A stretch of 64,000 bases of DNA from Pteria penguin (Eukaryota; Mollusca; Bivalvia; Pterioida; Pteriidae): positions 7,267,430-7,331,429 of the forward strand of contig CM068581.1 in the NCBI GenBank assembly GCA_035048485.1, written 5' to 3'. The notes beneath the pieces were generated by a model that did not search any database, had not been told where the DNA came from, and saw nothing but the letters and a program-made list of their open reading frames with translations. Within the stretch, counting starts at the first letter, position 1. Each line of letters begins with the position of its first letter. Below are positions 20,381 to 45,700 of the stretch, piece by piece. Position numbers and translations under genes: made by a program.

Positions 20381-20728
20381 TTTGTCTTTTGTTCTGAGAT
20401 TATAGATATTTTTCAAAAGTTTGCCTGCACTTCACCTCGAAGAAAAAAAGAATACATAAAAAAGAAGAAAACAGACCAAAGAAAATAATAGTGAATAAAA
20501 TAGAATGAAGATCAATGTCCATATATATATGACACTCGCTTGTATACTACAGAGTTTGATTCACAATTCTGTGACATTTCTTGGGTTAGTTGTCTTTTCT
20601 TGCATGGTTAGCTGTCCTTTTTCAGGATTGGTTATCCTTTCTATATGGTTTATTGTCCTCTTTTTTACAGGATTAGTTTTGCTTTTTACAAGGTTATTTG
20701 TTTTTTACAAAGTACGCTGTTTTTACAG

Positions 20729-20837
20729 GGTATATTGTCTTGAAGATCACAGTAGCTATGGTAGGAAAGTTTGGCATTACTGCGTCGTATGGTATCATTT
20801 ATCTCATGGCAGCTGAAGAATTCCCCACAGTGATCAG
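20729..20837 (+). CDS. SLC22 exon 7 (TM10)
   Basis: Preceded by a long pyrimidine tract and TTTTACAG, 109 nt encode a helix with VAMVGKFGITAS, then AAEEFPTVI, the usual SLC22 TM10 motif. Donor AG/GTAATA at 20838. The split Arg codon AG/G joins exon 8 exactly. The 13.8-kb intron that follows is almost entirely the Polinton. Confidence 0.88.
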
Positions 20838-20944
20838 GTAATAAATTTGTACTGTTCTATAACAAAGGAATGAAAACGAATAAAGTATCCAATTTAATGC
20901 TATGTAAATGTCCAAGATATTTAAAATAATCTGGTGTCTGTGTG

Positions 20945-21058
20945 GTTTTTGGGGGGGGGGGGGGGGGGGGGGGGGTTGTTTTTTGTTTTTTGGGGTTTTT
21001 TTTTTTGTTTTTCTTTGTTTGTTTTTGTTTTGAGGGGTTTTTTTTGGGGGGGGGGTTA
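20945..21058. repeat. G/T-rich low-complexity tract
   Basis: A run of about 26 G is followed by alternating T and G runs up to 21058. It lies in SLC22 intron 7 just left of the Polinton insertion. Open frames here are artefacts. Confidence 0.9.
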
Positions 21059-21132
21059 TTTGCCTCACACTAAGATTCAATATTCAGTTCTTTTGCGACA
21101 TAAACTTATTGTTTTGCGCCGAATGACCAAGC

Positions 21133-21138
21133 CGCATG
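21133..21138 (+). repeat. Polinton target-site duplication, left (CGCATG)
   Basis: The hexamer next to the left terminus is identical to the one at 34509-34514. Confidence 0.85.
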
Positions 21139-21375
21139 AGTAGTGTACCGCGTCCCGCTGTCACAAAAATGTACTATAGTAGGACCTAGTTTGCCCTTGA
21201 GTTGACCTTAAATTGCCCTTGTTTGAAGGTGCCCTTGAGTTTGACCTTGAATTTGACCTTGATTGAAGTGCATCAAGTGTATAAATAGAGTTCTAGAAGA
21301 GTATAGAATAAATGAAACGTGTTATAGTAGGTGAATGTTGACCTTGATCAAGAGCAAAAAATCAAGAGGAAAGCG

Positions 21376-21600
21376 AGAGCGCGGGAGCGCACGTGCTATG
21401 ACGTCATCGATTTGCCCTTGGCGCGAAAAGCCCTTGGTGGGAGCGCACGTGCTATGTCGTCATCGATTTGCCCTTGGCGCGAAAAGCCCTTGGCGGGAGC
21501 GCACGTGCTATGACGTCATCGATTTGCCCTTGGCGCGAAAAGCTCTTGGCGGGAGCGCACGTGCTATGTCGACATTGAATTGACCTTGCGCACGTGCTAT
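21376..21600 (+). repeat. 56-bp tandem modules with E-box and CRE in the left terminal repeat
   Basis: The unit GGGAGCGCACGTGCTATGAC plus GTCATCGATTTGCCCTTGGC and GCGAAAAGCCCTTGGC is present about 3.5-4 times. Each unit joins an E-box (CACGTG) to a CRE-like TGACGTCA. In the right repeat only one to two units remain (34180-34275). The arrangement looks like an enhancer or promoter array; function is inferred from motifs only. Confidence 0.7.
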
Positions 21601-21787
21601 GTTGGCATTGAATTGACATTGAGTGATGTACATGTATTTAGTTGTGTTGAAATAAATCATATAAAAAAAGGATAATAATAAAATAAGACTTACCGTGTTT
21701 TTGTTATTGCATCAGCAGCCCTTGAGTTACTTTTCATTTTATGATTTGTAGTGTTACATCAGCCATTTGGCTACTTTTCTAAAGATA

Positions 21788-21807
21788 TGGTGGCCCTTAA
21801 AAGGACC
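21788..21807 (-). terminator. Histone-type 3' end stem-loop (left terminal repeat)
   Basis: On the minus strand the sequence is AAAACGGTCCTTTTAAGGGCC followed by ACCA: a 6-bp stem (one G-T pair), a 4-nt TTTA loop and the ACCA flank. A purine-rich TTTAGAAAAG follows a few bases later, where a histone downstream element would be. The layout matches metazoan replication-dependent histone pre-mRNA 3' ends. It would end transcripts running leftwards. Confidence 0.6.
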
Positions 21808-22059
21808 GTTTTGTGTTTTCTTTGGCGGGTAGATCTTCTCACCGCTGGTGGTGGCCTTCGCGGCGGCTCCGCCCTCCATGGTTGATCTGCCCTCCACGGC
21901 ACCTATATAAATCTAACGAGATCCATTATTTCTTCGTCTATGGCCACCAATGATCTATACGTTATATGCTTTATACGTATTGATTTATACGTCATCATGT
22001 GTTTTAAATGTGATGCCCCTATGTACGTGTACACTTGGTTTTTAATTATCGAGTTTTTA

Positions 22060-22270
22060 TTCGTGGGGAATAAAATTTAAAACCGTGTGGAATAATTGTG
22101 CACTTAAAAATAATGGTGTGAATTAAATGTTTTTAATGGTGTGGAATAATTGTACACTTTAAAATAGATTTTGATTTTAAAATGTTTTATTAAGGGTGTG
22201 ATATTTTTATTTCAAAAATCATGTGAATGTACACTTTAAAATAAGTTTTTATTTCAAAGTGTTTTAAGGG
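22060..22270. repeat. AT-rich imperfect tandem repeat, about 65 bp, three copies
   Basis: GGTGTGGAATAATTGTRCACTT recurs near 22082, 22141 and in diverged form near 22195-22245. It lies between the Polinton left repeat and the Penelope-like insert. Which element it belongs to is unclear. Confidence 0.5.
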
Positions 22271-22274
22271 TTTT

Positions 22275-23830
22275 GAAAGAAAAAAGAGGAGTTACCGGCT
22301 CAGTTATGTGGCAGAAGTCACCATGGAGCTATACAATACATGAATATAAATAATATAATAGAACATTAATCAAATTAATTAATTAATCAAATGTGGATCC
22401 TTAAAAATTCAAAAGAGTTGTTAGAACATCTAAAATCAAAAAGTTTTACTAAAATTCACTCCATCAAGTCTTTTGACTTTTCGACTCTGTACACAACGAT
22501 CCCTCATCAGAAATTAAAAGACAGATTAGCGGAAATTATTCAAAATGCATTTACTAGTAAAAACGGAAGCCGAAAATTCAAATATATAGTAATAGGCCAT
22601 GATAAAACTTACTTTGTTAGGGAAAATTCTGATTCCAAAAATAAATACACTGAAACAGCTGTCATTCAGATGTTGAACTTTCTTATCGATAACAATTTTG
22701 TGGTGTTTGGAGGTAAGGTTTTTCAACAAATTGTCGGCATTCCAATGGGCACTAACTGTGCTCCGCTTCTGGCTGACATATTCCTTTATTCATACGAAGC
22801 TGAGTTCATTCAGTCTTTGCTTTCGCAAGGAAAAAAACAATTGGCTCTTGGCTTCAATTTTACTTACAGATATATAGATGACTTGCTTTCAATTAATAAT
22901 CTTTCATTCGCGGATTACCTTAGCATCATCTATCCAAGTGAACTGGAGGTCAAAGAAACCACAGAAACTAGTAATTCTACTTCGTATTTAGATATTATGT
23001 TGTCTTTCGACATTAATGGTCAATTGATCACCTCACTCTATGACAAACGTGACGATTTCAATTTCGCTATCACAAACTTTCCTTTCATAAGTAGCAACAT
23101 TCCATCATCGCCCGCATACGGCGTATTCATATCTCAGTTAATACGTTATTCCAGAGCATGTTCAAATTACAATGACTTTGTTCTGAGGGCTAGGCGACTT
23201 TCAGTTAAGCTGCTCAACCAGGGTTATATATGTGCTAGACTAGCATCGTCACTGAGGAAGTTCTACGGTCGTTACGAGACTCTTATTACTCCATATGATA
23301 TCTCGTTATCCAGACTTTTAAATGATATTCTGGACTGAGACCGATTCCGATCACTTTACACAGATTTGACACCTTCTATACTAGAGGGTTACCTACTTTG
23401 ACTTCTCCATATATAGATACATATGGAATTCACACGATTTGACTCTTTCTACGGGATATATGTGACGGGTGTTGCTAGCAAGCAGGAGATGCTCACTCTC
23501 CCCGGGCACCTGATCTCACTCCATCACAGGGGTTCACATATGCTCTTCAAGTAGACATATTTTGTTATTTTCCATTTGTTTTTCATTTTCACTGATTTTG
23601 TATGTCCTATGGTTTCTTGATTTTTGGATTTGTGGTTTGGATTTATCAATCATCTTTACATTTAACACATTACAAAAATATTTGATTGTAGTGCAATTAC
23701 GATACCGACTTAGGACGGTCATTTAATTTGACAAAAGCCAAACAAATGGTGTGGTTAACCGGTTTACGGGCCCACCTTCCCACTCACCGTAACAGCAGAA
23801 CAATCAAAATTGAGACACTTTACATGATCA
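22275..23830 (+). mobile_element. Penelope-like retroelement inserted in the Polinton
   Basis: The insert has the reverse transcriptase frame at 22391-23338, about 100 bp of 5' flank beginning AGGAGTTACCGGCTCAG, and about 490 bp of 3' sequence ending in the GGTTTACGGGCCCACC block. The outer parts are defined by comparison with 26440-26632, where the same 5' and 3' ends are joined directly, and with similar 3' ends at 180-312 and 62548-62650. No GIY-YIG endonuclease frame follows the RT. Exact ends and TSD were not resolved. Confidence 0.65.
22391..23338 (+). CDS. Penelope-like reverse transcriptase (N-terminally incomplete)
   Basis: A 315-codon intact frame carries reverse transcriptase blocks in order: FDFSTLYTTIPHQKLK (motif A with Asp at about residue 29), GIPMGTNCAPLLADIFLYSYE (motif B region, about 115-135), and FTYRYIDDLLSIN (motif C, catalytic YIDD at about 157-160). 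Then come SYLDIMLS and YDKRDDFNFAITNFPFI, typical of this family. It would copy element RNA into DNA at a nick. The protein lacks the usual N-terminal third and any C-terminal endonuclease, so it is a truncated or EN-lacking copy. I assign it to Penelope-like elements by motif pattern; some other RT lineage remains possible. Confidence 0.75.
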   Translation: MWILKNSKELLEHLKSKSFTKIHSIKSFDFSTLYTTIPHQKLKDRLAEIIQNAFTSKNGSRKFKYIVIGHDKTYFVRENSDSKNKYTETAVIQMLNFLIDNNFVVFGGKVFQQIVGIPMGTNCAPLLADIFLYSYEAEFIQSLLSQGKKQLALGFNFTYRYIDDLLSINNLSFADYLSIIYPSELEVKETTETSNSTSYLDIMLSFDINGQLITSLYDKRDDFNFAITNFPFISSNIPSSPAYGVFISQLIRYSRACSNYNDFVLRARRLSVKLLNQGYICARLASSLRKFYGRYETLITPYDISLSRLLNDILD

Positions 23831-23999
23831 TTACCCAGACATTACAAAGTCACGTCTAGATATAGAAAAACAGTAAGAGTTTTTACAATTTAAAACCTTT
23901 AATTAGAACGACATGTTTTTGCACATATACCAATGTATCACCACCATACAGTAAAGTCACTGGAATTCCATGGCATCTTGGCGTTTCAGAGAGTGTTTC

Positions 24000-24350
24000 T
24001 TAGATATCTTCATTACGAGAAGGCACCTGCTTGCGTTTCAGATTTCCGCTCACTAGATTTTTGAGTTCTTTCACGGCGTTCTGGATGTCGGTAAGATGTA
24101 CTTTCATCTCGCCGATTCCCATGTTGGACGGCATGGCCTCTACCTTCGTCTCGACCGCGATATTTTTCACGGCGGTGAGATTCTCATTGACGGTGTGCAT
24201 GACTTCTTTGCGATTTTTATTCATCACGCTCTCGAGGTCTGTCATCGTTTTATCGGTGGTTTTGGCTTCCCAAGCGTCTTGCGCGGTAAACACGTCCAAA
24301 ATCGACTGAGAAATCTCGGGAATTTTGTTGATCGGTTGCTGTTGAGCCAT
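24000..24350 (-). CDS. Polinton small protein, unidentified (116 aa)
   Basis: Start ATG is at 24350-24348 on the minus strand, chosen because a TATA-like TATTTAAG lies about 60 bp upstream and the longer upstream frame overlaps the divergent promoter region. The protein is polar with a long helical segment, probably coiled coil, at residues 40-100 and a basic end (LKRKQVPSRNEDI). No known domain was recognised. It is transcribed away from the polymerase gene; its downstream side is now occupied by the Penelope-like insert. The frame is intact, unlike its neighbours. Confidence 0.55.
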   Translation of the reverse strand: MAQQQPINKIPEISQSILDVFTAQDAWEAKTTDKTMTDLESVMNKNRKEVMHTVNENLTAVKNIAVETKVEAMPSNMGIGEMKVHLTDIQNAVKELKNLVSGNLKRKQVPSRNEDI

Positions 24351-24622
24351 GGTAGTTGTAACTCGTTCGATGTATCGAATCGAAATGAAACGTAGAGATC
24401 GAGACGGGCTTAAATATCTGATATTTCGTCCTTGAAATAACGCGACCACCTCGTAGAGGTCGTTCCATACATTATAGTAATTCGATCGGTGACGTGGTAA
24501 TTCACACAGCGCGAGTGGTCGTTTCAAAGTCGCGGTGACCTCCGTATACCAAAACGAGGCCGTCCAAGTCACATAAATAGAGAGTTTTTGATTTCGAGTT
24601 CATTTACGATTTCGTAGTCAAC
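24351..24622. promoter_or_regulatory. Divergent promoter region between two Polinton genes
   Basis: The 272-bp gap between opposing start codons holds a TATA-like TATTTAAG for the minus gene (near 24407-24415) and CATAAATAG for the polymerase gene (near 24571), each 50-60 bp from its ATG. No other signal was identified. Confidence 0.4.
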
Positions 24623-27600
24623 ATGCCAACAGCTAAAGATTTACCGAGATCGCAAAAATTTCGCACGCTTTTCAAAAGATGGGTGCGAAGACAGGGTGGA
24701 ATAGAAGGAGCCAGAGATAGACTTCGAGAGGTCCGAATCGAGAGTAAAAAGCCCAGAGACTTCTTTACCATCAAGACGAAAAGAGAACATCAGTCTCGAA
24801 AGTTTAAGACGAAGGGCGCCCGCTATGACGTGCAGTTCAAAGATCTGAGTCGAAAGATGCGGGTTAGTGACTTACCGAGATTTTTGCCTCGTATGATGAA
24901 TTCGTTAGTGAACGATTTGAAAAGAAAATGTCATGCCAAATACAAAGATTACATCAGGCTGAACATCATTCACTCTCTTTGAAATCCGAAATCTGGAAAT
25001 CACGCTGAGTCAGAATCTAACGGGGAATACGATCATGGACTAAATTCAGAAGGTGCAACAGAGTAACGAGAACTTTAAGTTGGAAGACGGGCAGACCACC
25101 ATGGACGTCTTCCACATCGAGTTGCCTTACGGATCCGGTGGACATAAGACGAAACATCTACATGCTGATGAAGAGGCTTTCAGGAAAAGCAAGAAGTCCA
25201 TCATACCGATCGAGAACGATGGAGATAACATGCGGTTAGCAAGAGCCATCGTGGTGGCCCGTCTACACGCTCAAAAACCTACGGACTCTCAAGAGATGCA
25301 AGATTGGAAAAGGGCATAGCATCGAATGATACAACCCAGATACCGGGATCAAGAGAGAGCGGCAAAATCACTATGTCAGGAGGCGGGCGTGTCGATGGAA
25401 CACGGATGTGGACCCATCGAGTGGACCATATTTCAGACGGTCTCCGCCTGAAAATAAATCAACAAGTACCAGAGACCCGGAAGATCAAACTGCAGTTACT
25501 GTACAAGGGAAACGTTAGAAACAACATGCGACCCAAAATGTTAAACAGCTTGTACTCGGAACATTATTACGATACCGTGACGTGCATGGCCGGTTTGATC
25601 GAAAGTTCATACTACTGCGACTTTTGCGACATGGGATATTCTCACAAGGAAGATCATCTCACGCGATGCCCGGTGAGGTGTAATTACTGCTTGAATTCAC
25701 CGCCGTGCCCCCGGGACGATTGCAATATCACGTGTCAGAGCTGTAAAGGACATTTTCCCAACATGCAGTGTTATTGGAGCCATCTGAAACCGTACAAAGT
25801 GGGAAAGAGCATATGCGAACTCATGACGAGATGTCGGGATTGTGGGAGTCGAATGAGTAAATCGCTGATGAGAATACATCGATGCGGCGATAAAGATCAC
25901 GTCTGTTCCATCTGTAAGACCGTGGTGGAAAAGGATCATCTCTGTTACGTGCAACGCAAACCGAAACCTAAGAAAAAAGGAGAAAAGAACTCGTACATCT
26001 TCTACGAATTCGAATGTAGCCAGGACACGGGAGTTCCAAACTTTTGCGTGGCACATCGAGTTTGCGATGCATGCATACACTTGCCGATCGAAGAAGAATG
26101 TGAGACGTGCAGTCCGTTACCAGAAGGAAGAGAAGTCATCTTTCAAGGAGAGAATACCTTAAAAAGTTATTCTCCTGTTGTGTCACGAACAAGAACAAAG
26201 AAATCTTGCCACGGCGGCGTGACGGCCATCGCTCACAACATGAAAGGATACGACGGACAATTCATATTACATTTCCTGGTCATTAGTGCGTGCATGAAAC
26301 TTGACTTCTTGATGAGCGGAGCCAAGATCATGACGATGTCAACGGGATATGTTTCATCGATTCCTACAACTTCATGAGTTCCTCGTTGAGTAAATTACCC
26401 AAGGCCTTCGTATTGACCGAATTGAAGAAAGGTTAAGAATTGAAGAAAGGTTAACCACACCATTTGTTTGGCTTTTGTCAAATTAAATGACTGTCCTAAG
26501 TCGGTATCATAATTGCACTACAATCAAATATTTTTGTAATGTGTAATATGTTCTAGTATATTATTTATATTCATGTATTGTATAGCTCCATGGTGACTTC
26601 TGCCACATAACTGAGCCAGTAACTCCTCCTTTTTCTTCCCTCATCTTTTCAACAGTCCGGTCAACCAGCAGTACTCGGGTACCTATTCTCTGATGGAAAA
26701 GTACTTGCCCGACTCCATGGATACCGAGGCTCGACGACAGTTCATCTCATGGTACGAAGACAAAGTGAAGAGCGGAGAACGGTTAGATTTTGCCACCGAG
26801 ATGCGAAAGTATTGTCGATCGCATTGTCGACGTAGACATATTGAGGAAATGTTGCAGGAAGTTCCAATAAACACTACTGAACTTGTCGACGTCGATCCCT
26901 TTACGGAATGTGTCACAATAGCGAGTGCTGCCAACTTTGCGTTTGGACGTCAATTCATGCCCAGATATCGTTTGGCCATCATACCTACCAAAGGATACCA
27001 ACCCGAACACAAGTATTCCATCAAAGCCTTACGATAGTTGAAATGGATCGCTCACGATACCAATCACGAGATACGACATGCTCGCAACGGAGCGGAAATC
27101 AGAATCGGACCTTACACCGTGGACGGATATGATATCAACACCCAGACCATTTACGAGTTTCATGGATGTTTCTGGCACGATTGCCCCGATTGCTATCCAA
27201 ACATGCAACTGGAAAATCACCCCTTGCGATATGACGTCACCTTTGCCGACTTGTACGATGCCATGCTGGAACGACAAAAAGAGCTGAACGAAATGGGATT
27301 CAACGTGACCATTATATGGGAACACGAGTACGATCAGAAGAGGAAGGACGACCCTACCTTTGGCGACTTCGTTCTTTCGATGTATAAGCAGTTAGCTGAT
27401 CCGTTGGAACCCCAAGACGCGCTGTTCGGAGGTCGTCCCAATGCTACCCGTCTATATTGTGACGAAGGAGACATGCGCTTCATCGACGTCTGTTCCTTAT
27501 ATCCTAACATGTTGAAATACGGAACCTTTCCCATCAGACATCCTACCATCGTCACGGAGGAATTCGGGGACGTGAGGGAATACACGGGCCTGGTGAAATG

Positions 27601-28755
27601 TCGCATGTTCCCACCAAGTGGATTGTATCATCCTGTCTTAACGTTCGGCACGGATCACAAGTTACTGTTTCCCTTATGTCAGACGTGCGCAACGACCAAA
27701 GAGAACGTAGGACCCGACTACCGGTGCGAACAAACGGATGACGAGTGAGCACTCATGGGTACCTGGACCACGCCCGAATTGAACATGACCTTAGACATGG
27801 GTTATCGAATAGATCGTATTTACGAAGTGTGACATTTCGAACAATCCAGCAACACACTATTTCGAAAGTATATAGAAACCTTTCTACGCATCAGACAAGA
27901 AGCCAGCGGATTCCCTAGCGATTGCGATACGGAGAAAAAGAAGTCGGCCTACATCAAGGACGTGTTCCAGCATGGAGGTATACGGTTGCAGGAAGTACGT
28001 AAAAATCCCATGTTACGTACCATTGCCAAATTATTTCTGAACTGTCTGTGGGGAAAGTTCGCTCAGCGACTGGCTCTGACTCAGAATCAATACTTTACGG
28101 AACAGAGCGAACTGATCGAGTTGATGCACGACGATACCAAAGATTTCAAACAAGTGGAAGTCATCAAAAATGACGAAGACGATTCCTTAGACATGGCATT
28201 GGCCAGTTTCACGGACAGCGACGATTTCGTACCACCGTGTCCCTTTAGCAACGTGATCATCGCCTGTTTTACCACGGCGCTGGCCCGTCTCAAGCTGTAC
28301 GATGCATTACACCGACTAGATAGAAGAGAGCTTTATTTCGATACGGACAGCATCATCTACATGTACATTCACGACGACGATGGATGGCAACCTAACATCA
28401 TGGATAGTTTGGGATGTTGGACCGACGAATTGAACAGTAAATCCATCACGACGTTTGTATCGGAAGGACCGAAGAACTACGCTTACCAATTAAGCGACGG
28501 AAGCACGACGTATAAAGTCAAAGGATTGACGTTGGATTTTCGCACCAGTCAAATCGTCAACTTCGAATCCATGAAAGACATGGACGAAAATTGGACGACA
28601 GAGACAAAGGAGAGGACAAGATCAAGGTCGTTTATCTTTCGAAGATCGTGTGTGCCAAAGACCATACGATTCACACGAATATGACCACCAAAGACTATCG
28701 CGTGGTGTACGATAAAAGACAAGTGTTAAAAAACTTGAACACCTTAAGGATACTG
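24623..28755 (+). pseudogene. Polinton protein-primed family B DNA polymerase, multiply broken
   Basis: The gene would replicate the element by protein priming. Visible parts: a basic N-terminus (24623-24982), a linker (25053-25319), a Cys/His-rich region (25600-26110), ExoI YEFE (about 26005), ExoII HNMKGYD (about 26235), a Cys-box FHGCFWHDC (about 27165), motif A DVCSLYPNM (27485), motif B region AKLFLNCLWGKF (28030) and motif C YFDTDS (28338). Breaks: frameshifts near 24975, 25304, 26345 and 28590; stops at 25038-25040 (TAA), 27035-27037 (TAG), 27746-27748 (TGA) and 27830-27832 (TGA); and a 190-bp insertion at 26440-26632. Catalytic residues survive, but no functional product is possible. 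Order and motifs match the Polinton/adintovirus pol B family. Confidence 0.88.
26440..26632 (-). mobile_element. Internally deleted Penelope-like element inside the polymerase gene
   Basis: Read on the minus strand, this is the 5' end of the 22275-23830 element (GGCTCAGTTATGTGGCAGAAG) joined directly to its 3' end (TTTGATTGTAGTGCAATTA, then GGTGTGGTTAACC), with the RT gene deleted. It interrupts the polymerase reading frame between the lysine-rich end of the exonuclease domain and the following PHLF segment. An 18-bp direct duplication GAATTGAAGAAAGGTTAA stands at its left edge. Confidence 0.8.
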
Positions 28756-29214
28756 AAAGGAACAAGATGTGCCACGACATCATTCGTCCGATGTTTAAAC
28801 TGGTACTGTGTATGAATATGAGATTACATAAATGCAACGGTTGTCACGAGGGAAAGGAATGTAATGTGATTATCACTTCGAAAAATGGATGGATGATATG
28901 TTACGAGATGGGAATCTCCCATCGGACGTCAACCTGTTAGTGGTTTGTTTTCACAAGACTTTTGTACCTAGTCTACGTGAAAAGAGAACTGTTGAACATT
29001 TTACCTTCGTATTATGCTAAACTTCTTTCCATGTATTGTTGTCAGTAATTTGTGTTCACAAAAAATTGTTGTTCATTAAATGTGTTGTCATTAAATTCGT
29101 AAAAATCAAAAAATTGTTTTTGTTTTTGTGTTCACCAAAAAAAAAAAATTCACAAAGATCACACTCTGTCCGTAGTCATAAAACGAGCACAAGTTCTTGC
29201 CGTCATTTGACGTC
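28756..29214. other. Polinton intergenic stretch
   Basis: Between polymerase end and ATPase start there is AT-rich sequence with a GTTGT/CATTAAAT repeat near 29040-29095 and an A-run at 29138-29150. Short ORFs here are unconvincing. Confidence 0.4.
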
Positions 29215-29841
29215 ATGTCGTCGTCCTGTGTACTTGCACTAGACCCGGTAGCCGGACCTAGTCGATCGGGAAAGATCGAGTTCGTCAAAAACGTGATGAC
29301 GTCGAAAGAGGCAGTCATACGACCACCGCCACATAAAGTGGTCTGGTGGTATCGGGAATGACAGAAAGCGTACGAAGACATGATAGACCACGTGAAGTTC
29401 GTCAAAGACATTCACGAAGACGACGAATTAGTGTCCGATACAAACGTTCCCCATCTCTTGGTCTTTGACGACATGATGGGAGATAAAGCCGGCGAATACA
29501 TCGTGGATTGGTTCACAAGAATAGCACAACACCGTAATACCAGTGTGGTGTACATCACTCAGAACTTATTCGACCGAGGTCCCCATCATCGCACCATCAG
29601 TTTGAACGCTCACTACCTGGTGTTCATTAAAACTCCACGAGACAAGGCACAGGTAGATACCTTGTCTAGACAGTTGAAATTTCCTTGCATGAACCATGCC
29701 TATCAAGATGCCACCAGTCGCACTCACGGTTATCTGGTGGTGGACATATCACCCACGACACCCGACGATCTGAGACTGCGTACCGACGTATTTCATCATT
29801 CCGAGGAAGGTGGCATCGTGGTGTACATGCCTAAGGCATAA
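29215..29841 (+). pseudogene. Polinton DNA-packaging ATPase (A32/FtsK-HerA type) with one stop
   Basis: ATG 29215 opens a 208-codon frame that would power genome packaging into a capsid. It has the Walker A loop GPSRSGK at residues 15-21, Walker B HLLVFDD near residue 80, and the sensor-like YITQNLFDRG near residue 112, followed by IKTPRDK. Length fits Polinton ATPases (about 200-250 aa). TGA at 29359-29361 (residue 49) interrupts it just after VVWWYRE; the family usually has a Trp there. Everything else is open, so this is the least damaged core gene. It sits between the polymerase and the basic protein gene. Confidence 0.85.
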
Positions 29842-29890
29842 AACGAAGCGTTCCACTCCCCACGAGATTATTTAGCGAACGACAGTTGTC

Positions 29891-30567
29891 ATGAGCACAT
29901 CGTCTTCTACCGGTAAGCTGATCCCTCTTTTGGGAAAACTCCACCGCACCAGAGATGTGCGACGGAGACAGTTATTATTGGAGGCCGGACGTAAAGCTCT
30001 GGTGAATTGGTTCAGCACGGGTGCTAAGAACATTATCAACGGGAGCATGTCCATGACAAACTGACCAAGAAATTCGTCAAGAAATATTTCGAGACCTTGG
30101 GAGCATTGGCCGATGGCAACATGGATCCCGAAGAGAGACAACGTCTCATCTTGAAACTGGGTGGTTCCGGAATTGTTGGGGGTGTCATCATACGTAACAT
30201 GATGCATTGGCCACAACGAGAGAAATCGAGACAGAAATTTTACATCGTATGTAACAGTCATCTCCTGGAGAATCCTTTCCTCAGACGACGTACTACCAAA
30301 GCCCCAAAGAAAACCCAAAAGAGGGCCCCAAAGAAGACAGCCCCTACTACGCCCAAGAAGACGTCGACGTCCACGCCGTTATTAGCTGCACGTGCGGGAA
30401 AATCGATCGACTCGTCGGACGGGGAGGACGAGACGGGATTCTTTGACGCTTCCAGTATTTTTGACTTAAATGCGACGGCCAAGACTCCCAATACTCAGTC
30501 GCAGATCGAAAAGAATTGGTTGAGTTTGGGCAGTCCCATATCATGGTTCGGCAACGACAAGAAGTAA
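29891..30567 (+). pseudogene. Polinton basic protein, unidentified, frameshifted
   Basis: ATG 29891 starts a basic helical segment (KLIPLLGKLHRTRDVRRRQ) that hits TGA at 30062. The next frame takes over near 30045 (DKLTKKFVKKYFETLGALA) and runs to TAA at 30567, so one frameshift splits a gene of about 220 codons. The middle has a Gly/Ile-rich hydrophobic patch (GGSGIVGGVIIRN), then a Lys/Pro/Thr-rich stretch (KAPKKTQKRAPKKTAP) like a histone-H1-type or DNA-condensing tail, and a C-terminus with SWFGNDKK. A virion core or membrane-active minor protein would fit its place beside ATPase and integrase, but this is inference. Confidence 0.5.
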
Positions 30568-31127
30568 CTCTATCCAAACTACCACAGAAAGTGTATTACG
30601 ATCCCGCACATCCGGGAGGATACGGGGGAGTCGAGTCTATCGGCAAGTCAAGCGTTTGGCACCCAAGTCTTCAAAGGTGAGGAAGAAGGACGTTATACGA
30701 TGGTTACGAGAACAATCTACGTACACGTTACATCGACCTATTCGACGAAAATTTTCGCACAACCACACGGAAGTGAGGAGATCCGCATACGAGAGACCTT
30801 CTTCTTCTCGAAAGAGACGTCGTCCGCGTTTTGCCGTGGGAGATTGGGTGAGAATCAGCAAATTGAAACATGTGCTCGAAAAAGGATATCTCCCCAATTG
30901 GACGACGGAACTCTTCATCGTCACTCGATGCGTTCCAAAGTATCGATGCGTATCCTTACGTCTACGTCATCAGAGACGATAACGACGAGCAGTTACGTGG
31001 AACGTTCTACGAGTCCGAGTTACAGAAGGTGATCAAGACGGACGACATTTACGACGTGGAGAAAGTTAAAATTAGCTCATGCATTCTCTTTCTACTGTTC
31101 CTTACTTCGTTAATTAACAGCTGCTGA
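30543..31127 (+). pseudogene. Polinton retroviral-type integrase, catalytic core deleted, frameshifted
   Basis: ATG 30543 overlaps the previous gene by 25 nt. The N-terminus has the Polinton pattern YYDPAHPGGYGGV, then a frameshift near 30638 leads to VIRWLREQSTYTLHRPIRR. Only about 30 residues later comes the C-terminal chromodomain-like part, VGDWVRISKLKHV with KGYLPNW, which in intact integrases lies some 200 residues downstream. The DDE core is therefore missing through an in-frame deletion near 30760-30820. A second frameshift near 30940 leads to the last block, RGTFYESELQKV (about 31000-31030). The protein cannot have catalysed integration after the deletion, so this copy was either mobilised in trans or deleted after insertion. 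Confidence 0.85.
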
Positions 31128-31237
31128 TTACCTTCTAATCTCGCTATTTTCCTTTCGTGTACGATGTACCGGGTCTTTGATTCGTCGGGTTGAACCGGTC
31201 TAGCGGGAGGCCTGGACTTCTTTGGTGTCTTAACCAC
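31049..31237 (-). CDS. Polinton minus-strand gene, C-terminal part (62 codons left)
   Basis: The frame reads towards the integrase end and overlaps its tail by about 80 bp. It is basic with a helical segment (HERKIARLEGNQQLLINEV) ending FSTS and a stop. The nested LINE begins about 10 bp upstream of its first Met, so the 5' part of the gene is cut off. The minus-strand frame at 33061-32738, on the other side of the LINE, may be the missing N-terminal part. No function recognised. Confidence 0.35.
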   Translation of the reverse strand: MVKTPKKSRPPARPVQPDESKTRYIVHERKIARLEGNQQLLINEVRNSRKRMHELILTFSTS

Positions 31238-31245
31238 CCTCGTCG

Positions 31246-32750
31246 ATGACTTGGGAATAGCAGTTTATTTGCAGGATATTGCTATGTTCTTACTCATGTA
31301 TGCTGACGACACTGTTTTGTTATCTGAAAGTCGTAACGGTCTACAACATATTCTTGATCAATTGAGCTGTTATTGTACCGAATGGGACATTTCTGTAAAT
31401 ACCGAAAAAACCAAAATTGTTGTTTTCAGGAATAATGGAAAGTTGGGCAAGGACGATAACTGGTGTTTTAACGGTTCGAAAATTGAAGTTGTCTCCTCTT
31501 TTAACTATTTAGGTGTCACATTGAATTTTAATGGTAAATTCCATAAAACTCAAAGTATACTTGCCATGCAAGGTAAAAAATGTATGTTTGGTGTTTTAAA
31601 AACATGTAATGATTATTCTTTAAATGTTGAATCGAAACTCAAAGTTTTCGATACATATGTTTCATGTGTTCTAAACTATGGCTGTGAAATATGGGGTCTT
31701 CATCAGGGAAAAGATATTGAAACAGTGCACTTGTATTTTTGTAAAAGAATTTTAAAGGTTAAACGCAGTACCCCTAACTTCATGGTTTACACTGAACTTG
31801 GTAGACTTCCATTAAAGATTTTACGTACTGTTAGAGTAATTAAGTATTGGTTAAAGCTCTTGAAAACAAGTAATTGTATACTGCGCTCACTTTTGGACGA
31901 AATGTTTTTAAATATGCATGAAAACAGCTGGTTATTTAATGTAAAAAATATCTTATGTACAGTTGGTTTTGGTGAAGTTTGGAACGATCAAGGTGTTACA
32001 GATGAGAATGCATTCCTGTATATTTTCAAACAGCGACTGACTGATATTTTTCTCCAGGAGAGAAACGTATTCTTTGAAACTTCTTCTAAATGTTTCATGT
32101 ATAGATACCTTACCAACTCGTTTACGCTTCAATATTATCTTCATAAATCTCTTCCAGATGATTTAGTTGTGCTTCTGTCTAAATTTAGATTACCTTCACA
32201 TTCACTTTGTATAGAACAAGGTAGATATAACAGGGTAGATAGAAATAATCGTGTCTGTCCTTTTTGCTTAGACACGGTCGAGGACGAGTATCACTTTATT
32301 CTTATTTGTCCTGCGTACTCTGATATCCGAAGGGTATATATTAAACCATATTACTGGATTCGACCCTCAATGTTCAAACTTGTTCATCTTTTCTCGATTG
32401 AAAACAAAAAACAGTTATGTAACTTTGGGAGATTTCTGAAACAGGCTTCTCAAATAAGAGATCTGAGAGTGTGATTTGCCTATTGTTGTTTTCTATTATG
32501 TGTTTACTATTTAGTTTCGATCCCTTAGGTTAAGTAAAGTTTGTATATACATGTTTATATATATTCATTTATATGTATGGTTAGTTCATTGTCTGTCCTC
32601 TTCAATTTAATTATCTCTAATTTACTGTGTAACAGTTAACTGCTAATCTTCATCTGTCTGAACGTTCACTCTGTATGTCTTTTGTGAATTTTGTACTTCT
32701 TGTATGCATATAAACCATATGGTTCTTTGCAAATAAACTATACTATAGCA
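31246..32750 (+). mobile_element. 5'-truncated LINE nested in the Polinton
   Basis: The sequence starts inside a reverse transcriptase gene and ends after a 3' UTR with GCAAATAAACTATACTATAG. It interrupts a minus-strand Polinton gene. A clear target duplication was not found. The ORF below is intact, so the insertion may be recent relative to the decay of the Polinton genes. Confidence 0.75.
31251..32474 (+). CDS. LINE ORF2 fragment: RT palm/thumb to zinc box
   Basis: An uninterrupted frame of 407 codons begins just before the RT catalytic box FLLMYADDTVLLSE (residues 13-26), continues through WDISVNTEKTKIVVF and FNYLGVTLNF (thumb), LNYGCEIWG and the long connection region, and ends with a Cys/His box CPFCLDTVEDEYHFILICP near residue 340. 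RT motifs before YADD and the endonuclease are missing because of 5' truncation. Similar C-terminal order is seen in the dead LINE at 5510-3540. The first Met is not a natural start. Confidence 0.85.
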   Translation: MGIAVYLQDIAMFLLMYADDTVLLSESRNGLQHILDQLSCYCTEWDISVNTEKTKIVVFRNNGKLGKDDNWCFNGSKIEVVSSFNYLGVTLNFNGKFHKTQSILAMQGKKCMFGVLKTCNDYSLNVESKLKVFDTYVSCVLNYGCEIWGLHQGKDIETVHLYFCKRILKVKRSTPNFMVYTELGRLPLKILRTVRVIKYWLKLLKTSNCILRSLLDEMFLNMHENSWLFNVKNILCTVGFGEVWNDQGVTDENAFLYIFKQRLTDIFLQERNVFFETSSKCFMYRYLTNSFTLQYYLHKSLPDDLVVLLSKFRLPSHSLCIEQGRYNRVDRNNRVCPFCLDTVEDEYHFILICPAYSDIRRVYIKPYYWIRPSMFKLVHLFSIENKKQLCNFGRFLKQASQIRDLRV

Positions 32751-33061
32751 AAATTCGACTGATACACATTGAGTGACTTCTCTACCGAAGTAGAAGGCAC
32801 TAACAAAGTCTGAGCGACTACTTTAGGCTTCTGCTGATACTGCTGTTGCTGTGTTGTAGATGTGGTAGACGGCCTTAGCTGTACTGTAGTAGTAGTAGTA
32901 GTAGTAGTAGTAGACGGCATTAGCTGTAAACTTTCCATAAATTCCGACTTCTTTGCCGAAGTAGATGGCATCAGTAAAGTATGCATCTGCGGGATAACTT
33001 TAGACTCCTGCTGCTGCTGTTGCTGCGGTACTGTATTACTAGTAGACGACATCGTCGGCAA
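32738..33061 (-). CDS. Polinton minus-strand low-complexity protein (N-terminal part)
   Basis: ATG at 33061 gives a 107-codon frame rich in Gln, Thr, Ser and Pro, with runs of Q and T encoded by CAG/ACT-type triplet repeats and a duplicated phrase (TLLMPSTSAKK and TLLVPSTSVEK). The frame ends a few codons into the 3' end of the nested LINE, so the true C-terminus has been displaced, perhaps to 31237-31049. Nothing indicates function; such repeats can also arise without selection. Confidence 0.35.
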   Translation of the reverse strand: MPTMSSTSNTVPQQQQQQESKVIPQMHTLLMPSTSAKKSEFMESLQLMPSTTTTTTTTTVQLRPSTTSTTQQQQYQQKPKVVAQTLLVPSTSVEKSLNVYQSNFAIV

Positions 33062-33482
33062 AGTCGGTGTGATATTTTGCTAGATCGCCATCGTCGTTTG
33101 ACTCCTTGGCGGTATTCTCCTCCTCTGTCATTAACATCTCCAGCTTGGCGGTATTCTCCTCCTGTCATTAACATCTGCAGTAAACATTCGAATTTAGATG
33201 TTTCCATCATGGCGTCTTGGATTAGACTGATGCACTATGGAATACGCGCTCGTGCTGTAAATTATGACGTCATTTTATCGTTGGCATATAACTGAACATT
33301 TAAACTGCACGATAATCTCAATGATCATTAGGTATAAATCAATTCGAATATAGCATATAACGTATAGATCTTTGAATCGATGGCGATGGAATACGCACAC
33401 ACGCTGCGAATTAAGACGTCATCCCTGTCCGGGCTGCATTTTCCTCGTTCGCTATTGATTTTTTTTTATAAAGAACAACACC

Positions 33483-33980
33483 ATGGAGCAGATTGCAAAT
33501 CGATCGAGAGCAGTGGCACAGAATCAAAGAGTGAAAGCGCTAGAGCTAGTGCAGATTGCCGACATACTAGATGAGATAGCGGGGGAAATGGAGAACAAGA
33601 AGAATATGTTAGCTCAGAAAAGGAAAAGAGAACAGCTAGAAGAAAAGATAGGAGACGTAGATGAAAGACGGGTAGTGGAAGTCGTAAGATGTCCGAACGG
33701 ATTGTGGAGGCCCAATCAACATCACGGGCCTCCGAACTACACGCTACCCCCTCCACCACCACCAGTAGTAGAAGACTGGGAAGCGGAAATTCGGAGTGAT
33801 CCAGAACCTCCATTCCGGCCTGATTTGTTTCAATCAAGCCCCCGTCCTCTAGCAGCATTTTCCCGTGCTGCTAGGACACGGGCACGCTCCTGTCCGGCGT
33901 GTGGCTCCCGCAATTGCGGGACCACTGAGTTCTTTTTAAGAACTAAAAAACGGCCCCTTATGGGGCCACCATATCTTTAG
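33483..33980 (+). CDS. Polinton right-end protein, unidentified (165 aa)
   Basis: ATG 33483 follows TATAAAG (33467-33473), too close to be its TATA box. Residues 1-65 form an amphipathic, probably coiled-coil helix (LVQIADILDEIAGEMENKK, then a KRKREQLEEK stretch). Residues 84-100 are proline-rich (YTLPPPPPPVV). The end has a CPACGSRNC knuckle at about 138-146 and a basic tail. The last 12 codons lie in the terminal inverted repeat and run through the histone-like stem-loop, so the natural end of the gene is doubtful. No family recognised; position and intact frame argue for a real accessory gene. Confidence 0.5.
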   Translation: MEQIANRSRAVAQNQRVKALELVQIADILDEIAGEMENKKNMLAQKRKREQLEEKIGDVDERRVVEVVRCPNGLWRPNQHHGPPNYTLPPPPPPVVEDWEAEIRSDPEPPFRPDLFQSSPRPLAAFSRAARTRARSCPACGSRNCGTTEFFLRTKKRPLMGPPYL

Positions 33981-34508
33981 AAAAGTAGCCAAATGGCTGA
34001 TGTAACACTACAGAACATAAAATGAAAAGTAACTGGAGGGCTGCTTATGCAATAACAAAAACACGATAAGTCTTATTTTATTATTGTTCTGTTTTTATAT
34101 GATTTATTTCAATACAACTAAATACATGTATATCACTCAATGTCAATTCAATGCCAACATAGCACGTGCGCAAGGTCACTTCAATGTCGACATGGCACGT
34201 GCGCTCCCGCCAAGGGCTTTTCGCACCAAGGGCAAATCGATGACGTCGTAGCACGTGCGCTCCCGCGCTTTCGATTTCTTCTTGATGTTTTGCTCTTGAT
34301 CAAGGTCAACATTCACCTACTATAACACGTTTCATTTATTCTGTACTCTTCTAGAACTCTATTTATACACTTGATGCACTTCAATCAAGGTCAAATACAA
34401 GGTCAAACTCAAGGGCACCTTCAAACAAGGGCAATTCAAGGTCAACTGAAGGGCAAATTAGGTCCTACTATAGTACATTTTTGTAATAGCGGGACGCGGT
34501 ACACTACT
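33945..34508 (-). repeat. Polinton right terminal inverted repeat
   Basis: Inverted counterpart of 21139-21808. It contains the C-terminal codons of the 33483-33980 reading frame, a stem-loop at 33952-33967, fewer 56-bp units, and three exact TCAAGGTCA words (34300, 34385, 34436). Confidence 0.88.
33952..33971 (+). terminator. Histone-type 3' end stem-loop (right terminal repeat)
   Basis: AAAAACGGCCCCTTATGGGGCC with flank ACCA gives a perfect 6-bp stem and a 4-nt loop, then ATATCTTTAGAAAAG. It is the inverted counterpart of 21788-21807; stem bases differ but pairing is kept. Two other palindromes precede it, CCCGCAATTGCGGG (33909-33922) and GTTCTTTTTAAGAAC (about 33929-33943). The 33483-33980 reading frame has its stop nine bases past the hairpin. 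Confidence 0.6.
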
Positions 34509-34514
34509 CGCATG
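34509..34514 (+). repeat. Polinton target-site duplication, right (CGCATG)
   Basis: Matches 21133-21138; 6 bp is the length expected for Polinton integration. Confidence 0.85.
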
Positions 34515-34622
34515 CCGCCCTTTCAATTTCGTCTCTGATAAATTGATACATAAAGCGTAAGATCATGGAAATGACAATAGTCTCGTTGACACTGTAGCAC
34601 AATCTTAACATATCTCGTCTAG

Positions 34623-34835
34623 GAATATCGGTATGGGAGTGTCGTCGTTGTCCGCTCGTATAGGAGGTATGTTTGTACCACAGATATTGGAGCTTAAGAC
34701 TATCTGGGCGCCTCTACCATTCCTGGTGTTTGGCATACTGAGCTGTGTAGGGGGTGTGCTAGCTATTTTGCTGCCAGAGACGGCAGGTCGACCGTTACCA
34801 CAGACTATAGAGGATGTTACTCACCCTGTACTTCA
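34623..34835 (+). CDS. SLC22 exon 8 (TM11-TM12 and C-terminal signature)
   Basis: After acceptor CGTCTAG, 213 nt encode NIGMGVSSLSARIGGMFVPQ, a last helix, and LPETAGRPLPQTIEDV, which is diagnostic for SLC22 proteins. Donor CA/GTATGT at 34836. Phase matches exon 9. Confidence 0.9.
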
Positions 34836-36459
34836 GTATGTCAAAATATCTAATCTCTTTTTGCATGCCAATTAATCAAACGGCTGTCTTCTTTTAAATT
34901 ACTAACCTAATATTGTTTTAAAAAATAAAGATTTATAACAGATCATTCTATAAACAAATTAAATCAAGAATTTCTGAAAGAAATATGCATTTACATTATT
35001 TGCATTGATTAATAATTGAATGAAATCTTATCTGCTGTGTGTAAATCGTAAAGATTCACGGGGGCCTGAAATTATGTTACTAATATTTTCATAATATCCC
35101 TAAAAGAAATAAAATAAATACATACATTAAAATATAAATAAAAAAGAGATAAAAAAAAGTAAAATAAATAAATGGAAATAATATCTAAAAATCATGGACA
35201 GTGATATTTTAATAGCTTACAACCCTGCCGTTTTCTATTCGTGTTTCATAAAAAGAGAGAAGGGAAGACACTGATTCTGGTATAAAATAACTCTCGAGCG
35301 TTTGCAGACAAATGTGGACGAAATAACTATTAATCAGTCTAATCCGACTAAGTTTAAATTAATCCTTCCCAATTTGCAAAAAGAAGAAGAAGAGGGAGAA
35401 ACCACTCTAATTAAACAGTCTGGGAGATGAATTCATATTAGTGTTTAATTTGTTTTCAAATCCCTTACATATCATTGTTATTGCATTTGTATATACCGTG
35501 TTTTGACAATTATATCTAAAGAAGTTTGCACCAAGTAGCTACGATCTTGACATCTCTGAAACGTGTTGACACAATATCCTCGTAAATATCCAGTCTGGTA
35601 ACAGTCTGGCAAGCACTGTTTGTTACCATAATTTCACTTTGGAATAAGTCACCCAACTTGTTTTGCAATAATTTGATTGCAAAACGGGTTTTATTGCAAA
35701 ACGGATTTTATTGCAAAACGGATTATAACAAAGCACTACATGGAATGTACAATCTGACTGACTAAGAACCAAGATTTGCTCGAGACTGGAAAAGAGGGAA
35801 ATTCAGAGAAATTCAAATTCCACAATGGCAACCTCATAGTCATGAACTTGGTTTTCAGTTGAAATAAGGGGGTGTTTTTTTTTTTTTTGGCAAATCAGGT
35901 CAAAATACAAAATGATTTAAACTCAATCGTATAAGATTGACACAGTTACTTGTACGCTAATAAAGCCTCAATGTCTGTGATTTCTATGAATTATTAAGTT
36001 TTTTATAGCATAAATACCACTTACATAACTTAAGGCCCTTGCGTATAGATCTTATCTGGGAGTAACCCTAATTTCTCATGAACCTTTCCAGTACCCATCT
36101 TAAATGAATGCAATGCATACTTTATTTCTTGTATGCAACCAAGTTATGACATCCAATCAGTTTCATAATATCAAAGAAGATCCATTCTATTGTGAGATTA
36201 TTTAACATTCAACCAATTAATGACATTCACTTCAACTGCTCTGTCAATTTTCGTACATCTATTTCGAAGAAAATGATGCACTACTGCCATTTAAGCAGAG
36301 TTTAACAAATTTTGGGATTTAAAAAAGTTACATAGTTCTATGCTAAACCTTCAAATTCGTTTGAAGCTAAGTTAATGAAGTTGTACATTAATTTTACATT
36401 TCACTTGGCTTGTACTATACTTCTGTTTAATATAAACTGAATAAAATGTTTGATTCCAG
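34836..36459. other. SLC22 intron 8, no gene seen
   Basis: AT-rich intron. A short triple repeat TTATTGCAAAACGG (35660-35725) and an A-rich segment (35100-35200) are the only structures noticed. Confidence 0.6.
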
Positions 36460-42763: not shown

Positions 42764-45700
42764 CTAAAACAAATAAACAACATTCAAAATAAATACACCA
42801 TTAAATTTCACTCATGTTTTTCTAAACAGAATCAGCACTCCTTTTAAACAACTATCAGCAAGGAAAATGCTTTTGGAACATGATGGTAACAGCCCCCACC
42901 CCGGGAAAATGCTTTTAGTGAACATGATGAAAACAGCCCCCACCCCGGGAAAATGCTTTTTGGAACATGATTGAAACAGCCCCCACCCCGGGAAGATGCT
43001 TTTATGGAACATGATGGGAACAGCCCCAACCCCGGGAAATGTTTTTGGAACATGATCAAAACTGCTCCCACCCCGGGAAAATGCTTTTATATAGCATGAT
43101 GGAAACAGCCCCTACCCCAAGGAAATGCTATTTGGAACACGATGAAAACAGCCCCACCCCGGGAAAATGTTTTCTTGGAACTTGATGGGAAAAGCCCCCA
43201 CCCCGGGAAAATGCTTTTATGGAACCTGATGGAAACAGCCCCTCCCCAACCTGGGAAAATGCTTTTATAAAGCATGATGAAAACAACCCCCACCCCGGGA
43301 AAATGCTTTTATAGAATATGATGGATACAGCCCCCACCCGGGAAAATGCTTTTTGGAACTTGATGAAAACAGCTCCCACCCCGGGAAAATGCTTTTATTG
43401 AGCATGATGGAAACAGCCCCCACCCCGGGAAAATCCTTTTATGGAGCATGATGGAAACAGCCCCCACCCCGGGAAAATCCTTTTATGGAACATGATGGAT
43501 ACAGCCCCCACCCCGGGGGGAATTGTTTTAATAATTTTAAACTTCATTACCCTATGGGAAAGTTTGTAGAGAAATCCAATCTGCTCTGGAGTTAAGTTCT
43601 TGAGTCCAGAAAACCTGAAAAAGAAGAAATGTACCCTATTAATACCGTAAATATAAAACTTCAATAGATTTTTCAAGGATCCACATAAAACTGACCCCGA
43701 TTCTGAACTAAGAGAAATATAGTTACTACAATTGATTGATTATCAATTTACGTCAATCCACGGCATCCGCCAGATGCATAGAAATTTAGACAACGGACCC
43801 TACCTTATATTTAACAGCGCGGAATCTTTAACGTGCCACGCCTACTGTGGCATGGTACCTCGGTTTTCACTATCTCATCCAAATGGCAGGACACCGGTGA
43901 GCCCATGGCGGGAGTCCAACCCGGGACCTTCGGTCACGAGCCGAGTACCTCATCCACTTGGCTACACCGGCTCTTATACGATTATTAGAAATAGTTACGT
44001 ACGTTTCCAGCTTGTTTTGTTTGAGCCATTTATCTATGTCTGCTTTTGTCCATTGTGATGTTATTAAGCCCAATGTCGCCGGTTGTTTTATGGAGCTAGC
44101 TATGGCAGTCCATTTCTCTTTTGGTGCCATGGATGTAGCCTCCTGAAATGTTATATTGTTATATGCTACTTTTTAATCATACATCTATGTTTAATTACTT
44201 GTCTTGTGTAGTGGTTAATGTGTGGTGTGGTGTGGCTTGGTGTAGTGGTTAATGTGTGGTGTGACTTGTTGTAGTAGGTAATGCGTGGTGTGGTGTGGCT
44301 TGGTGTAGTGGTTAATGTGTGGTGTTGCGTGGCTTGGTGTAGTGGTTAATGCGTGGTGTGGTGTGGCTTGGTGTTCTGGTTAATGCGTGGTGTGGCTTGG
44401 TGTAGTGGTTAAAGTGCAGAGTGGTGTGGCTCGGTGTAGTAGTTAATGTGTGAAGTGGTGTGGCTTGGTGTAGTGGTTAATGTGTGATATGGTTTGGTGT
44501 AGTGGTTACCGGTAATGTGTGGTGTGGTGTAGCTTGGTGTTGTGGTTATTGTGTGCTGTGGCTTGGTGTTGTGGTTAATGTGTGGTGTGGTGTGGCTCGG
44601 TGTTGTTGTTAATGTGTGGCGTGGCTTGGTGTAGTGGTTAATGTGTGGTGTGGTGTGGCCCGGTGCTGTGGTTAATGCGTGGTCTGGTGTGGCTTGGTGA
44701 AGTGGTTAATGTGTGGTGTGGTTTGGTATAGTGGTTAATGTGTGGTGTGGCATGGCTTGGTGTAGTGGTTAATGCGTGGTGTGGTGTGGCTTGGTGAAGT
44801 GGTTAATGTGTGGTGTGGTGTTGTTTGGTGTAGTGGTTTAATGTGTGGTGTGGTGTGGCTTGGTGTAGTGGTTAATGTGTGGTGTGGATTGGCATAGTGG
44901 TTAATGTGTGGTGTGGTGTGACCTGGTGTTGTGGTTAATGTGTGGTGTGGCTTGGTATAGTGGTTAATGTGTGGTGTGGCATGGCTTGGTGTAGTGGTTA
45001 ATGTGTGGTGTGGTGTGGCTTGGTGAAGTGGTTAATGTGTGGTGTAGTGTGGCTTGGTGTAGTGGTTAATGTGTGGTGTGGCCTGGTGTTGTGGTTAATG
45101 TGTGCTGTGGCTTGGTGTAGTGGTTAATGTGTGGTAAGGTATGGTGTAGTGGCAATCTTATTGAAACGCGACTTGTACTTCGTTCCTCTACGCTACACTC
45201 CATGTACAAGATCTTACAACTGCCGATTCGAGGTCATCTCAAGATGACCTTTCAGTACAGCCAGTAAGAATTTGAGTTAGAGATCTTTCGGTATTGTTTG
45301 TATGTAAGATAACACCGAAAGATCTCTAACTCCAATTCTGATTGGCTGTTCTGAAAGGTCATCTAGAGATGACCTCGAATCGGCAGTTGTAAGATCTTGT
45401 ACATGGAGAGTATCGTAGAGGAGCGAAATACAAGTCGCGTTTTAATAAGATTGGGTGAAGTGGTTAATGTGTGGTAAGGTATGGTGTAGTGGTTAATGTG
45501 TGGTAAGGTATGGTGTAGTGGTTAATGTGTGGTGTTGCGTGGCTTGGTGTAGTGGTTAATGTGTTGTATGGTGTGGTTTGGATGAAGTGGTTAATGTGTA
45601 GTGTTGTTTGGTGTAGTGGTTAATGTGTGTTGTGGCTTGGTGTAGTGGTTAATGTGTGGTGTGCTGTGGCTTGGTGTAGTGTGATTAATATGTGGTGTGG

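Follow-up and report, generated by a model that had tools for sequence, protein, structure and literature searches.

Polintons (Mavericks) usually carry terminal inverted repeats and are flanked by a 6-bp duplication. Here we report on a decayed Polinton of the bivalve Pteria penguin, found in a window of 64,000 nucleotides (contig CM068581.1 of assembly GCA_035048485.1, positions 7,267,430 to 7,331,429), and on its relatives elsewhere in the same genome, in which hairpins resembling the 3′ ends of histone genes stand behind small accessory genes. With described Polintons these elements have in common terminal inverted repeats, a 6-bp duplication, a family B polymerase, a chromodomain integrase and an A32-like ATPase; histone-type 3′ ends on accessory genes set them apart. 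The likeness to the histone signal itself (RF00032; SLBP/U7) extends to a 6-bp stem, a 4-nucleotide loop, AAAC before and ACC after the hairpin, GAAAAGTA 12-14 nucleotides on and a short gap from the stop codon, the difference being that here a mobile element carries the signals behind four small genes that are not histone genes, and that the window copies score under the gathering cut-off. Transcripts of a eukaryotic DNA virus likewise end at hairpins: according to the excerpted text of PMC4402537, Mimiviridae transcripts end at palindromic hairpins and are cut and polyadenylated there by viral enzymes. A term search finds hairpins, stem-loops, polyadenylation and histones unmentioned in the excerpted text of PMC8097293. 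Among the open-licence papers listed we found no described case of histone-type 3′ ends on Polintons, and one may have been reported elsewhere.

To judge from sequence, the hairpin and the GAAAAGTA that follows it are most probably the 3′-end signal of the host's replication-dependent histone genes, adopted by one Polinton lineage for small accessory genes that we call A, B, D and E. In the window, the first-pass annotation had placed such hairpins in both terminal repeats of a Polinton, at 21807-21788 on the minus strand and 33952-33971 on the plus strand. Both are there (minus 21807-21792, plus 33952-33967), within terminal repeats that we confirmed together with the 6-bp target duplication; upstream of each stands AAAAC, downstream ACCATA and then TCTTTAGAAAAGTAGC. 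A 6-bp stem, a 4-nucleotide loop, a G-C second pair and an ACC flank are present, with an atypical loop, TTAT, on the right. Within 20500-35500 the two hairpins are the top two matches of 4227 Rfam families, the left one scoring 26.7 bits (E 6e-4) and the right one 22.3 bits (E 0.027) with Histone3, RF00032; over the whole window, where microRNA-type matches rank better at several positions elsewhere, the E-values become 0.0026 and 0.11. Hairpins of relatives (L004, L005) reach 41.6 bits and exceed the Rfam gathering score. The two window stem-loops differ at 5 of 16 positions: a U-A pair is replaced on both sides by C-G, a U-G pair becomes C-G, and two bases of the loop are exchanged. The 45 bases that follow are identical.

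Comparison with the histone genes of the host, whose genome was searched over 838 Mb, provides a better test. The histone array on contig C1 holds H1, H2A, H2B, H3 and H4; in every one of these genes a stem-loop begins 26-38 nucleotides after the stop codon, and GAAAAGTAG lies 13 nucleotides behind it. Leaving out all Polinton sequence, we built a covariance model, R1, from seven host histone ends, those of the five array genes and of L001 and L002, two single H1-like genes, and ran it over 22 of 60 collected sequences (161,458 bases); the E-values of such models are rough. R1 scores the window signals at 57.6 bits (21764-21813) and 55.1 bits (33946-33995), and 26 of 27 Polinton hairpins at 48.5-64 bits, the remaining one being a decayed copy in L005 at 34.5; the best unrelated match has 17.3 bits. 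The downstream element is purine-rich and lies at the host's own spacing, GAAAAGTA beginning 12-14 nucleotides behind the stem in Polinton signals against 13 in host histones, and the right window signal has a run of 16 bases, TCTTTAGAAAAGTAGC, in common with the 3′ end of host H3, the left copy being identical. Signals of the four gene types are 76% alike among themselves and 75% alike to those of host histones, which are 79% alike to one another, as against 43-57% in the flanks. The single H1-like genes lie 16.7 kb apart outside the array (C9:18321560 and C9:18338212), have an SR-repeat N-terminus, and their stem-loops give the highest RF00032 scores in the host genome (43 bits); the L002 frame is broken.

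A DNA search with the right signal returned 41 matches. Besides both repeats of the window they mark 38 further places, one of which is hit in two pieces. Two relatives could be mapped, one on C13 (31775118-31794693, 19.6 kb, duplication TGGGCT), pieced together from separate stretches, and one on C1 (24343780-24361288, 17.5 kb, duplication CACTAT), of which the ends alone were read. The C13 copy encodes an integrase with PF00665 (E 5.3e-13) and a chromodomain (PF00385), a family B polymerase (E 3.1e-50) and an A32-like ATPase (PF04665, 23.6 bits against a cut-off of 22.8); candidate capsid (jelly-roll) and protease frames in its stretch L040, picked by look and position alone, match no Pfam or NCBIfam family. 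Either relative has five hairpins, one behind a gene A at each end and one each behind B, D and E, all reading in the same direction as the gene before them. No Pfam family matches gene A, B, D or E above its cut-off. The gap from stop to stem is 17-23 nucleotides for gene A (24 of 26 frames), 22-23 for gene B with two at 13 (22 of 26), 23 for gene D (the single frame) and 22 for gene E (two of three); the seven frames lacking a signal are shortened, at 59-133 amino acids. The histone-type reading had been staked beforehand on hairpin conservation in related elements, and in these relatives the signal is kept.

The window hairpins both sit at the inner edge of a repeat, and gene A with its signal lies near both ends of the relatives, as one might expect of hairpins that act in DNA, in replication, packaging or integration at the repeats. 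We consider this very improbable, because the signals of B, D and E stand outside the repeats' outer ends, inward of the end genes, because all five signals run sense and lie about 20 nucleotides past a stop codon, and because host histone genes bear the same sequence. The same placement indicates that the signal is the 3′ end of an accessory gene and not a property of the terminal repeat. Elsewhere on C13 (25090236-25098013; L023, L005), a second signal set of A, E and a decayed D lies less than 5 kb from the sequence most closely related to the window's terminal repeat, and the locus looks like two Polintons adjoining or nested.

Signals of this kind are frequent in the host genome: the pattern GGYYYTTHTHARRRCCACC occurs 210 times against 0 for its reversed control, and RGYYYTTHTHARRRCYAACC 241 times against 4. 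Their positions were analysed on C1-C4 among the matches listed (the first 100 places per pattern), with type letters assigned by us and the length of C4 assumed, and with a C4 list for GGYYYTTHTHARRRCCACC that may be incomplete; the counts in the rest of this paragraph are all among those listed matches. Outside the histone array, 131 of 162 places are no more than 15 kb away from a close-family ATPase, a neighbourhood of some 0.3% of the sequence, and none lies near a divergent ATPase; among the other 31, one group on C3 is a full set with no listed ATPase. The full set of five signals, arranged A-B-ATPase-D-E-A or as the mirror image of this, accompanies 23 of the 32 close-family ATPases, and the other nine, the window's included, have 0 to 4. 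That there are hundreds of copies would suit hairpins that titrate host SLBP or U7 as decoys and do not end the element's own mRNAs, an idea to which we attach next to no weight: a decoy would need no placement some 20 nucleotides behind the stops of four coding genes in a fixed sense orientation.

The first-pass annotation took preserved pairing despite differing stem bases as a sign of selection on structure, and this finds support across the relatives. We aligned 17 Polinton hairpins (14 distinct), including the decayed D hairpin of L005, which lowers the counts of this alignment (A5), and compared them with 500 shuffles, which ignore relatedness. Pairing is kept in 96.4% of cells; changes on both sides are seen at three of six pairs, a number reached by 5 of the 500 shuffles; and none of the shuffles, which score 0.211, attains the covariation score of 0.324. 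Sliding the pairing partner reduces every measure. Most gene A copies have A-U as their outer pair, as does host H1; L004 and L005 have G-C. Genes A and E are under purifying selection: between L005 and L043, gene A has a synonymous divergence (dS) of 1.16 and a nonsynonymous to synonymous ratio (dN/dS) of 0.08, and for gene E of L042 and L043 dN/dS is 0.20; figures for gene B were excluded, as they involve the frame-shifted L014. Most copies are young and alike and the window copy is decayed, so that histone 3′ ends acquired once could in principle have hitchhiked without function. This is improbable, given that 45 of 49 signal bases are kept between L005 and L043 in spite of the gene A dS, that pairing is re-established by two of the four changes, and that four gene types bear the signal at a near-equal distance past the stop.

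The signal is confined to the accessory genes. Behind 16 core frames (of 17, 16 were read) there is no hairpin within 300 nucleotides, L040 and L041, which between them cover the greater part of the C13 core block, give no R1 hit, and the last core frame is followed by AATAAA at +61, +72 and +83. Behind genes B and D there is no AATAAA within 300 nucleotides. Because the core frames have no hairpin and AATAAA follows the last of them, the core genes likely use ordinary poly(A) signals and the element likely has two classes of 3′ end. These observations also bear on the possibility that the hairpins are a virus-specific end signal, merely histone-like, comparable to the ends that viral enzymes cut and polyadenylate in Mimiviridae (excerpted text of PMC4402537). 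Little probability attaches to it, since the match to host histone ends is one of sequence and not of structure alone, downstream element and spacing included, and since Mimiviridae-type ends terminate transcripts generally, whereas here only accessory genes have them.

If the signals are instead read as adopted histone ends, host SLBP would bind the stem-loop and the host U7 small nuclear ribonucleoprotein the downstream element, cleavage would follow a few bases past ACC(C)A, and the mRNA would end, unpolyadenylated, in the hairpin. The core block, which comprises polymerase, ATPase, integrase and the intervening genes, would rely on poly(A) signals, giving two mRNA classes of which one is tied to S phase. 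We infer SLBP/U7 cleavage, the absence of poly(A) and S-phase timing from the layout of the signals, and think it fairly likely that the lineage combines a polyadenylated core class with an accessory class ended by host SLBP/U7, whose proteins would be made during host DNA replication. In the host, the RNA-binding domain of SLBP (PF15247) has two matches 2.5 kb apart on C4, of 54.7 and 38.6 bits, which jointly cover the whole model. If this is true, the histone 3′-end pathway extends beyond histones to a virus-like mobile element that uses it on four gene types; poly(A)-minus, S-phase transcripts would offer a direct, testable means of learning when Polintons become active in animals' cells; and poly(A)-selected RNA-seq could miss these accessory genes.

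Several results weigh against such a reading, some of them concerning the signals themselves. Both window hairpins fall below the Rfam gathering score of 34 and go unlisted at that threshold. The histone layout proposed for the right hairpin holds for stem and flanks and is weaker than proposed for the loop, which is TTAT and not U-rich as usual, and the window's gene B homologue (33483-33980) continues through the hairpin, whereas gene B of the relatives stops before it. Further pair types in the alignment are no more numerous than in shuffles (6 against 6.1), and much of the agreement among copies is common descent, since most copies are young. AATAAA stands at +258 or +269 behind gene A and at +15, +105 and +122 behind gene E, and either gene may therefore have poly(A) ends.

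The remaining points concern machinery and range. Of the two host SLBP matches, one is interrupted by a stop codon. U7 small nuclear RNA was not found in the host genome, where RF00066 is silent, as it is in all control genomes; of two U7 patterns, the first gave 26 matches against 26 in the control and the second 8 against 39, and 10 and 8 loci drawn from them showed no convincing U7 layout. Since host histone genes carry the downstream element, we regard the missing U7 as a limit of the search. Around four more distant Polinton loci (ATPases of 41-49% identity, on C13, C8, C1 and C9, the element ends being unmapped on C1 and C9), eight stretches gave no R1 match above 17.3 bits. Scanning viral contigs with two ATPase alignments and a piece of the polymerase turned up no relative; nor did a phage collection, nor protein searches in which gene B of the window and gene A of a relative served as queries. 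The ATPase homologues in the protein collection come without DNA, so that the signal is known to be conserved within a single genome. In the repeats of the distant C13 and C8 elements we observed a different, outward hairpin, ACCTCA-TTTT-TGAGGT followed by GAAAAAG or GCGAAAG, with no G-C second pair and no ACC flank; these hairpins (L056:2670-2714, L057:2396-2440, L058:3125-3169), the three best R1 matches in the distant loci, score 17.3, 17.3 and 16.4 bits and, with their GAAA-rich stretch, bear a faint likeness to histone ends.

The window copy, whose features are collected in Table 1, is an old, decayed member of the lineage that retains two histone-type signals; as it is decayed and its right loop is atypical, these may no longer work. 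Its polymerase pieces align at the DNA level with the polymerase of the C13 relative (L041/L040), and its ATPase has 150 scored matches in the host genome.

Table 1. Features of the decayed Polinton at 21139-34508 (positions are those of the window)
Feature	Positions	Strand	Remarks
Left target site duplication copy	21133..21138		CGCATG
Left terminal inverted repeat	21139..21812		starts AGTAGTGTACC; hairpin at inner edge
Left downstream element	21770..21785	minus	TCTTTAGAAAAGTAGC; GAAAAGTA begins 12 nucleotides past stem
Left histone-type stem-loop	21792..21807	minus	GGTCCT-TTTA-AGGGCC; 6 pairs, one U-G
Reverse transcriptase frame within element	22379..23338	plus	weak: 20.6 bits against Pfam cut-off 29.6
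Broken family B DNA polymerase	25229..28684	plus	pieces in several frames; PF03175 in 27038-27745 and 27833-28681
Packaging ATPase, C-terminal part	29362..29841	plus	135 homologues at E <= 0.001
Integrase remnants	30481..31066	plus	two stretches, 67% and 72% DNA identity to relative's integrase region
Reverse transcriptase frame within element	31194..32474	plus	PF00078, 40.6 bits
Gene B homologue	33483..33980	plus	frame reads through hairpin
Right terminal inverted repeat	33947..34508		starts as left repeat, AGTAGTGTACC; hairpin at inner edge
Right histone-type stem-loop	33952..33967	plus	GGCCCC-TTAT-GGGGCC
Right downstream element	33974..33989	plus	TCTTTAGAAAAGTAGC; longest exact run in common with host H3 3′ end
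Right target site duplication copy	34509..34514		CGCATG

Beside the left hairpin, a frame ending in PPKKTQ had been compared to a histone H2A tail, with capture of a histone gene in mind. We find no support for this idea: the left frame has no stop before the hairpin, and the likeness of the 93 bases before it to host H2A DNA is near chance, its score being equalled by 38 of 1000 shuffles. On the right, a second perfect palindrome, AGTTCTTTTTAAGAACT, stands directly before the hairpin (33928-33944), and a similar one occupies the same position in most gene B relatives. Far outside the element, a tRNA match of 33.9 bits (43900-43971, minus) is the sole Rfam match above gathering score in the whole window.

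Histone-type stem-loops also occur elsewhere in the host genome. Of its 75 scored RF00032 matches, 51 lie within one tandem array on C2 (70598128-70681422, repeat of about 1385 bases), where the three loci read (L006, L007, L008) encode a non-histone protein of 116 amino acids with a histone stem-loop 20 nucleotides past the stop. This protein has no clear match in Pfam, NCBIfam or PDB. A 113-amino-acid gene, similar as judged by eye, is found at L003 (C3:31082530), also with a histone stem-loop, and the genes of the C2 array and of L003 are possible non-histone host genes with histone-type ends.

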